This document shows positions 17,128-19,286 of a stretch of 33,229 nt of DNA, in pieces; within the stretch, counting starts at the first letter, position 1; every line of letters begins with the position of its first letter. The translations under genes were made by a program, and so were the position numbers. The stretch covers positions 1 to 33,229 of the forward strand of contig JAAZAH010000059.1 in NCBI GenBank assembly GCA_012514415.1, read 5' to 3'. This DNA comes from Sandaracinaceae bacterium (GTDB lineage: Bacteria; Myxococcota_A; Polyangia; Polyangiales; Houyiibacteriaceae). The notes under the pieces are model-generated. The model was not told the DNA's origin. It was given only the letters and a program-made list of their open reading frames with translations, and did not search any database.

Positions 17128-17865
17128 TCAGCGAAGGTCCGCGATCTTCCACACCGAATCTTCGAAGACGAGGAAGACGAGGCCGTCGCTTGCGTATTGG
17201 ATGACGGCGCGATCGTCTTCAATCTGAGCCTTGAAGGAGTCGGTTTCATCGACGATGGCGAAGAGACGAGCGAGCGCTGGGTCAGGACCGTCCTCGAAAG
17301 CCTCGCGGAAAACCTGCTCATTGAGCCCCTCGCGATCGCGCCTCGGAACGAAACGGATGAGAAGATCGAAGCGCTTATTCTGCACCGCGCGCGAAAAAGA
17401 TCGGAGCGCGAGCTCGGGCGTCGATTGAGGATAGGGGTTGAGGATGGAGCCATCGAGCCGCCATTCCCCGTCCTCGAGGTAGAAACGGACGACTGTTCCA
17501 TCTGCAAGCGTGAATCGGGCTTCAGCGCGCTGGGCCTCTGGTTCGCCTCGGAGCATCGAGGCGAGGGCGAGGCGTTCGCTCGGATTTTGACGAAGCTCGC
17601 GGGCGAAATCCTCCGGACTGACCTCGGCGCGGCTTTCCGAGGCGAGGAGGTGGTAGGCCGCGTCGTAAGCCTCGCGCTCGATGAGGTTTCCAAAATCGCG
17701 CGCGGTGCGCGAGGGCGTTGATGGCCCGCCGCACGCATTTTGCGTGAGGACAATCGCGACTGCGAATAAGACTAGAAGGCGAAGGCCTCTGGGCGAGGTG
17801 TCATGTGCGAACCCGCCATGCGAGCGGATGAGGCGAATCCAACGCGTTGAAAAAGAGCGATCCAC
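17128..17865 (-). CDS. Hypothetical secreted protein or lipoprotein
   Basis: N-terminal hydrophobic segment (LRLLVLFAVAIVLTQNACGG) ending at a Cys, although the lipobox is non-canonical. 3 bp upstream of rluD, same strand. Confidence 0.65.
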   Translation of the reverse strand: MDRSFSTRWIRLIRSHGGFAHDTSPRGLRLLVLFAVAIVLTQNACGGPSTPSRTARDFGNLIEREAYDAAYHLLASESRAEVSPEDFARELRQNPSERLALASMLRGEPEAQRAEARFTLADGTVVRFYLEDGEWRLDGSILNPYPQSTPELALRSFSRAVQNKRFDLLIRFVPRRDREGLNEQVFREAFEDGPDPALARLFAIVDETDSFKAQIEDDRAVIQYASDGLVFLVFEDSVWKIADLR

Positions 17866-18029: not shown

Positions 18030-19286
18030 TTAGCTGCAAGTGGGCTCGCCGGCGCTCGCCCCACTCGTCGAGGCCGACGCGCTCACGCAGGCGCTGAATT
18101 CGACCGTGACGCTCACGCTCGCGGCGGCCGCGGCCGTCGAAGCCACGGCATTTCCAAGCGCTTCGATCTTCACGAGGGCGCAGGCGAAGTTGTTTCTCAG
18201 GCCGGCCGAGAGGCGCTCCACCGAGCGGACGAAGGCGCCTGCGTCCTTGAAGAGCTGTCCGTAGCCCTCGACGACGAGGAGGAGCTTCGGAAGGTTGGCC
18301 TCGAGCGTATCGACGAGCTCCGCGGCCCCTTCGCCATCGGCGCGGACCTCGACGTGGATCGAACCCTCGGTGCACTCGGCGGCGAAGTTGGCTTGAGCCT
18401 CACAGCTCGCATGGCACTCGGCATCCCCTTCGCAGCGGGGCGGCTCGAAGCTCCCCTCGCAGCGGGGCGGTGAAACCTCCTTGGTGCAGCCGCCTCGGCA
18501 ATAAAAATCGCCACGCGCGTCACATTCAGCCTTCCCCTCGACCTCGACGCGGCATGAGCCTTCGCACGATCCCGAGCAGGTCCCGCTGCACGATCCTGAG
18601 CAGGTTCCTTCGCAGCTCCCCTTGCAGACTCCATCGCAGCGTCCATCGCCGCCAAGTTCGCCTTCGCAGGTCCCGTTGCAGACGCCATCACAGGTTCCGC
18701 TGCAGCTCCCTTCGCATCCGCCTTCACAATAGCCTTGGCAGCTCCCCTCACAGTCGGCGACGATGTCTCCGCTCAGCTCGCAATAGGCCTCGACGTTCGC
18801 TTCGCAGTCGACATCACACTCGACGGCGAACTTGCCTTCCTCGCAGCGGACGTGAAGCTCGGGCTCGGTGCACTCGATGTCGATCTGGCAGCCCGCCTCG
18901 CAATCGACCCGTGCTTGAGCGTCGATATGGCAGACCGGCGGGGTCGCGATGATGTCGATCTCGATGCCGAGCTCGAGATGAGCGGCGATCGCTCGGTCTG
19001 CCGCGCGGCATGCCTCCTCGACGCTTGCCTCGTTGAAATCGGTCTCGCCGAGATCCTTCGCGATGGAAGCGCACGCCGAGGCGACATCACCCTCGATCAT
19101 CTTCGCTCGCGTCTCGAGGAGCTTGGCGGCCTCGAGCGTTGCGTCGATATTCGCGGATAGGCTGGTGTCGCAGAATTTATCGACGTCTTCATCGCCGCAG
19201 CCGGCGAAGAGGAGTGCGGCGACGAGCGCCGCGGGGAGAAAGATGGGATGCGCAGTCCTGCGCGAGTAAGAATTGTGGAGGTTCAT
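18030..19286 (-). CDS. Cysteine-rich repeat lipoprotein
   Basis: Signal peptide with lipobox (AALVAALLFAGC). 39 Cys in 418 aa. Central array CEGSCQGYCEGGCEGSCSGTCDGVCNGTCEGELGGDGRCDGVCKGSCEGTCSGSCSGTCSGSCEGSC. Confidence 0.88.
   Translation of the reverse strand: MNLHNSYSRRTAHPIFLPAALVAALLFAGCGDEDVDKFCDTSLSANIDATLEAAKLLETRAKMIEGDVASACASIAKDLGETDFNEASVEEACRAADRAIAAHLELGIEIDIIATPPVCHIDAQARVDCEAGCQIDIECTEPELHVRCEEGKFAVECDVDCEANVEAYCELSGDIVADCEGSCQGYCEGGCEGSCSGTCDGVCNGTCEGELGGDGRCDGVCKGSCEGTCSGSCSGTCSGSCEGSCRVEVEGKAECDARGDFYCRGGCTKEVSPPRCEGSFEPPRCEGDAECHASCEAQANFAAECTEGSIHVEVRADGEGAAELVDTLEANLPKLLLVVEGYGQLFKDAGAFVRSVERLSAGLRNNFACALVKIEALGNAVASTAAAAASVSVTVEFSACVSASASTSGASAGEPTCS
18552..18752 (-). 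repeat. Intragenic CxGx-encoding tetrapeptide repeat array (two blocks of 8 Cys)
   Basis: Residues 179-245 of the Cys-rich protein have Cys every 4 residues, with one 10-residue spacer (CEGELGGDGR). Confidence 0.85.

Follow-up and report, generated by a model that had tools for sequence, protein, structure and literature searches.

The window, which is the whole 33,229-nucleotide stretch of DNA analysed here, carries on its minus strand an ATG-initiated open reading frame (ORF) encoding a lipoprotein of 418 aa (Table 1). The earlier note, which gave no strand for this ORF, had described its product as a 39-cysteine lipoprotein with lipobox Cys30 and two blocks of eight cysteines at four-residue spacing. 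The count and the lipobox were confirmed, and the two blocks were located at residues 179-207 and 217-245 on either side of the EGELGGDGR segment. Besides the cysteines listed in Table 1, the protein contains C369, C400, and C417. The unbroken 8+8 run is particular to the window protein; many homologs break the run by a step of 8-10 residues, nearly always at mirrored places of both blocks. As judged from sequence comparison, the ORF is a genuine gene and not a chance one, because homologs are widespread, the invariant alignment columns are nearly all Cys or Gly, and the signal peptide with its lipobox, present in the window protein, is kept in nearly all homologs.

Table 1 Parts of the lipoprotein gene and their positions in the window
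Feature	Position	Strand	Basis
Whole gene, 418-aa 39-Cys lipoprotein	18030..19286	-	ORF and homologs
Signal peptide, residues 1-30, ending in lipobox LLFAGC with lipidated Cys30	19197..19286	-	Sequence; lipobox kept in homologs
N-terminal helical region, residues 31-118; predicted helices 41-78 and 89-104; C39, C72, C93	18933..19196	-	AlphaFold2, pLDDT about 79-97 from residue 41
Arm 1 outer part, residues 119-178; Cys 119, 129, 133, 139, 148, 157, 161, 169; includes predicted C129-x3-C133 helix	18753..18932	-	Mirror of 246-305; AlphaFold2 strands
Inner arm 1, residues 179-207; eight Cys in steps of four (CxGx array)	18666..18752	-	Sequence; AlphaFold2 strand 178-211
Predicted hairpin turn EGELGGDGR, residues 208-216, palindrome centre	18639..18665	-	Cys map
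Inner arm 2, residues 217-245; eight Cys in steps of four	18552..18638	-	Sequence; AlphaFold2 strand 216-249
Arm 2 outer part, residues 246-305; Cys 255, 263, 267, 276, 285, 291, 295, 305; mirror of arm 1	18372..18551	-	Cys map
C-terminal helical region, residues 306-418; predicted helices 321-406; low-complexity Ser/Ala tail	18033..18371	-	Alignment and AlphaFold2

The neighbouring genes of the window (pseudouridine synthase, purine genes, TPR proteins, methylmalonyl-CoA mutase) look unrelated to the lipoprotein gene, and the gene order around it is kept only in a sister genome. The product of the next gene downstream (17128-17865, minus strand) is 245 aa long, matches no Pfam family, and likewise contains a lipobox-like motif, LTQNACGG; the gene is kept beside the lipoprotein gene in the sister genome (L002) with 42% identity. 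A promoter and terminator scan at the lipoprotein gene gave nothing useful.

Pfam and NCBIfam scans of the window protein returned no fitting family. A PDB sequence search with phmmer gave a best E value of 0.41, and Foldseek against PDB a best E value of 3.5, neither of which is significant; viral structures were also without a significant match. The earlier statement that no named domain is recognisable thus holds for Pfam, NCBIfam, and PDB. Two results had been named beforehand as telling against the earlier reading, a match to a characterised Cys-rich family and the loss of Cys conservation; the same searches found no such family, and the homologs keep the cysteines.

Homologs were found at E<=1e-3 in 72 of the 97 related genomes, with up to nine matches per genome. 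In a further search, which started from a four-sequence alignment, the named relatives that carry them include Polyangium, Sorangium cellulosum, Nannocystis, Plesiocystis, Paraliomyxa, and Sandaracinus. When 29 homologs were aligned, the invariant columns were almost only Cys and Gly. An even draw across the phylum (237 genomes) yielded strong, long matches all within class Polyangia, and nine genomes outside Polyangia gave short array matches only (E 5e-7 or weaker). Full-length family members were found only in this class. One contig contains four adjacent family copies, two per strand (G063:C151:85559-91136), a sequence arrangement pointing to local duplication. An acidobacterial protein with 63 Cys at four-residue period and no obvious turn (L111:572-1831) looks, from its sequence, like a different kind of Cys array. 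At the end of a contig labelled gammaproteobacterial (L110) lies a fragment whose Cys spacing, 4,4,8,4,4, is mirrored; we take the residues with which it ends (YTSPSPRDRQKS) to resemble a translated sequencing adapter, which makes this contig end doubtful.

Mirrored cysteines and their co-variation between the arms

When the cysteines of the window protein were numbered outward from C207 and C217, those of arm 1 fell at distances of 0, 4, 8, 12, 16, 20, 24, 28, 38, 46, 50, 59, 68, 74, 78, and 88 residues, and those of arm 2 at the same sixteen. The mirror match is therefore 16/16 and takes in all 32 Cys from residue 119 to 305, including the irregularly spaced flanking ones; this palindrome through the flanks is absent from the earlier note. 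Any other pair of neighbouring cysteines taken as the centre gave at most five matched rungs, and the 15 spacings in one arm can be placed in 900,900 distinct orders. The residues other than Cys are mostly unmirrored (17/76 mirrored, 8 of them Gly).

We considered an internal duplication or inversion as the source of the symmetry and rejected it on account of these unmirrored residues. Inversion is moreover ruled out because a DNA inversion gives the reverse complement and not a reversed protein.

The turn Cys pair aligned in 91 of 96 homologs, and the following counts refer to these 91. Up to 90 residues from the turn, arm 1 has 1268 cysteines in all, of which 1170 had an exact partner in arm 2 and 1266 a partner within one residue. 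The spacings themselves vary between lineages: inner runs of 5+5, 6+6, 7+7, and 8+8 were found, some runs are broken by an 8-residue step at mirrored places of the two arms, and the rung count reaches 19 (L079, L088, L100). When one homolog was taken for each arm-1 pattern (n=33), arm 2 was identical in 25; shuffling the arms among these representatives gave a mean of 0.8 identical and a maximum of 6 in 20,000 trials.

Pattern changes were also placed on a tree built only from the flanks, that is, from residues outside the mirrored domain. This tree needed 29 changes in arm 1 and 32 in arm 2. It was revealed that 28 of the 29 arm-1 changes fall on the same branch as an arm-2 change (about 5 expected), and that in 22 of these 28 the two arms change to an identical new pattern. 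The palindrome register was the best of seven compared: Cys lies opposite Cys at 943 of 994 positions (95%), and slides by 4, 8, or 12 residues lowered this to 41-68%. The ratio of opposite to like charges was also highest in the palindrome register (1.77 versus 0.66-1.41 in the others). At the level of sequence, such mirrored co-variation is what an antiparallel hairpin with paired positions would be expected to show.

The profile also found proteins of about 290 aa that have a signal peptide, 34-39 Cys, and the same kind of palindrome (L109, L112-L121, L129; for example L113:158-1027:-). The palindrome of this second family amounts to 12-13 exact rungs in the clearest cases, with about 15 within one residue, and is weaker in some members. 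The segment GALFCDGQYVD is conserved among these proteins, and at their C-terminus lies a membrane helix with an Arg tail that resembles MYXO-CTERM (15.9 bits against a cut-off of 20). Strong members occur in many relatives and none was found in the window's genome. Since the second family has a different anchor, the putative ladder module would occur with two anchors.

Predicted structure and oxidative folding genes

AlphaFold2 was run on the window protein with a 62-sequence alignment, and the model was of moderate confidence (mean pLDDT 72, pTM 0.54), being poor at residues 153-177 and 249-271. Two strands, 178-211 and 216-249, flank the turn with pLDDT mostly 78-90. Outer strands (143-149/275-281) and helices bearing the Cx3C motifs (123-131/289-301) are at mirror positions, so that the beta-strands suggested earlier for the flanks are borne out by the model. 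The inner strand ends are 3-4 residues off the palindrome register, which would fit a slipped register in that model; periodic repeats invite register slips in such models. The model of a 19-rung homolog (L088) had low confidence in the centre, and six strand pairs in it are mirrored exactly: 122-133/333-344, 144-147/319-322, 150-163/303-316, 172-183/283-294, 187-194/272-279, and 197-209/257-269.

The survey of gene neighbourhoods at 80 loci gave no universal partner. A VKOR-DsbA fusion (VKOR plus Thioredoxin_4/DSBA, with a CxxC thioredoxin site) adjoins the gene in 6 of 78 named loci, on the same strand and 20-191 bp away (L082, L089, L094, L098, L099, L101). Only a minority of loci show this adjacency. 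It is far above chance, the estimated expectation being <0.1 when each genome has one or two VKOR genes, with the reservation that some of the six may share descent. VKOR was present in 55 of the 72 lipoprotein carriers versus 2 of the 25 non-carriers. One genus largely confounds this difference, which we left out of the evidence. In the genome of the window (93.5% complete), only DsbA-like proteins were found, and neither VKOR nor DsbB. One of its proteins (G000:C115:862-2661) has three DsbA-like domains in one chain, as do proteins of relatives (L130, L131, L132), in which three CPFC sites were read.

Pairing of the cysteines and alternative readings

The mirrored Cys map, the co-evolution of the arms in the 91 homologs, and the AlphaFold2 strands favour a two-stranded antiparallel hairpin over the solenoid proposed in the earlier note. 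A beta-solenoid, in which the CxGx repeats would wind into a disulfide-filled helix with about 12 residues per turn, accords with the regular four-residue period and with a sub-threshold Pfam match to the solenoid family Bactofilin, although that match is weak (E=0.32). Such a helix leaves the exact palindrome about one turn and the joint changes of the arms unexplained, and the modelled protein has two strand runs around the turn and no fold match in PDB; we therefore consider a solenoid very improbable. Harder to set aside is an intermolecular ladder, in which arm 1 finds its partner in arm 2 of a different chain, so that a domain-swapped dimer or polymer results. The palindrome and the Cys pairs would then be the same, and the sequence cannot distinguish the two arrangements. 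The turn, however, is 8-9 residues long in 81 of the 91 homologs and usually has a D/N/S-G type turn sequence, which favours self-folding, and pairing between chains is thus regarded as unlikely, if somewhat less so than the solenoid.

The metal-binding surface protein that had been suggested, which would have reduced and metal-bound Cys as in metallothionein, is not the best fit either. Its 39 Cys and CxxxC patterns could in principle bind metal, but an exported lipoprotein resides in an oxidising compartment, a metal site would need no palindromic spacing, no metal family was matched in Pfam or NCBIfam, and some loci have VKOR-DsbA neighbours. It is very doubtful that this is the function of the array. 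The only cysteine-repeat family that matched at all was TIGR04114, whose CXXX-repeat proteins have Cys every four residues, as in the window protein, and are associated with radical SAM maturases; its substrates would carry thioether cross-links. The genome scan gave 27.2 bits, summed over neighbouring repeats, but the protein scan gave 10.6 bits, below the 20-bit cut-off. The cognate maturase TIGR04115 had no candidate in the window's genome (G000) and none above the cut-off in 12 genomes, and the window protein is a 418-aa lipoprotein whose palindrome this reading leaves unexplained. The radical SAM link was rejected for lack of the maturase, and we attach almost no probability to it.

Disulfide pairing, which had been thought compatible with the cysteine count, is judged likely, as predicted pairs. 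The most satisfactory reading, and in our view a probable one on the Cys map, its co-evolution, and the models together, is a lipid-tethered antiparallel hairpin rod with about 16 predicted cross-strand disulfides and a helical base. The hairpin and the helices are predicted by modelling; we infer which disulfides form, how the rod is oriented, and what role it has.

A putative disulfide-ladder rod and its relation to known systems

The protein would be exported and then lipidated on Cys30. With a single reversal at the turn, residues 119-305 may form a long antiparallel hairpin, in which 16 consecutive disulfides would join, across the two arms, the cysteines that are equidistant from the turn. 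The predicted inner pairs are C207-C217, C203-C221, C199-C225, C195-C229, C191-C233, C187-C237, C183-C241, and C179-C245, and the predicted outer pairs are C169-C255, C161-C263, C157-C267, C148-C276, C139-C285, C133-C291, C129-C295, and C119-C305. Along the inner CxGx part, Cys and Gly would alternate on one face with small polar residues on the other. Among the homologs, the middle residue of the C-x-G-x-C units is Gly in 83% and Ala in 16%, and small polar residues fill the rest of the four-residue units, where large hydrophobics amount to 3.4%. Because of this composition the ribbon would be without a hydrophobic core, and it is expected to be held by its disulfide rungs. Further out, C129-C295 and C133-C291 may staple two antiparallel helices. 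The N- and C-terminal helical regions would meet at the base by the lipid anchor, so that the rod would point away from the membrane. By our estimate the inner ladder by itself would measure about 11 nm (34 residues at about 3.3 A each), and the whole rod would be longer. The rungs would be made by envelope enzymes of the DsbA type, and length may have been adjusted in evolution by gaining or losing rungs on both arms together.

As for the role, we tentatively suggest that the rod serves the cell envelope or surface as a spacer or spike that is stiff and resists degradation. This is the likeliest role because the turn is short and has no obvious binding domain. No conserved gene partner was found that would point to a role. 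It is plausible, with about equal weight on either side, that envelope rods of this kind are typical of Polyangia, being giant cystine ladders (mostly 13-19 rungs) that gain and lose rungs symmetrically, are attached to the membrane in at least two ways (by lipid or by a C-terminal membrane tail), and have a dedicated VKOR-DsbA oxidase in some lineages. If this is true, bacterial cell envelopes would have in such rods a new structural element that is zipped covalently.

Provided that the pairing is right, sequence alone gives the disulfide connectivity of a 32-Cys domain, and this in an undescribed family that most of the sampled relatives carry. The cystine-ladder principle, known with three rungs from small peptides, would then reach sixteen or more rungs in a protein that is anchored. 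The ladder protein would also be a demanding natural client for bacterial oxidative folding, some of the genomes being without detectable DsbB or VKOR. A rod whose length can be tuned may be of use in protein design. Small cystine ladders are already known; as far as we know, and in the literature that was searched, neither the protein family nor the scale of the ladder nor the symmetric evolution of its rungs has been described. What sequence comparison establishes here is the undescribed family, the palindrome, and the co-evolution of the arms, as distinct from the disulfides and the role.

In alpha-hairpinins, which are small secreted peptides, a Cx3C...Cx3C pair staples two helices that run antiparallel. 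This staple resembles C129/C133 with C291/C295, which in the window protein would form one segment of a long hairpin. Theta-defensins contain a three-rung cystine ladder (PMC10096437), and have been compared (PMC6327110) with a cystine-ladder-like module in the HAP2 protein of a green alga, which has three disulfides in a 37-residue loop with the connectivity 1-2, 3-6, 4-5. In theta-defensins, as would be so in the predicted ladder, parallel disulfide rungs link two beta-strands that run antiparallel. Theta-defensins, however, are 18-residue head-to-tail cyclic peptides with three rungs, whereas the window protein is linear, lipid-anchored, and 418 aa long, with long flanks and 16 predicted rungs at four-residue spacing with Gly between. 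The HAP2 module is without a palindrome over 88 residues per arm and belongs to an unrelated protein. By analogy, the theta-defensin ladder and the HAP2 module are the nearest structural ideas. The cysteine-rich part of TraA, a surface protein of Myxococcus xanthus, has been proposed as a rigid stalk (PMC3325183). TraA resembles the window protein as a myxobacterial surface protein with a cysteine-rich part, but Pfam and NCBIfam scans at E<=10 found in the window protein neither the PA14 domain nor the tandem TIGR04201 repeats nor the MYXO-CTERM that TraA has. With this difference, the TraA stalk is, again by analogy, the nearest functional idea.
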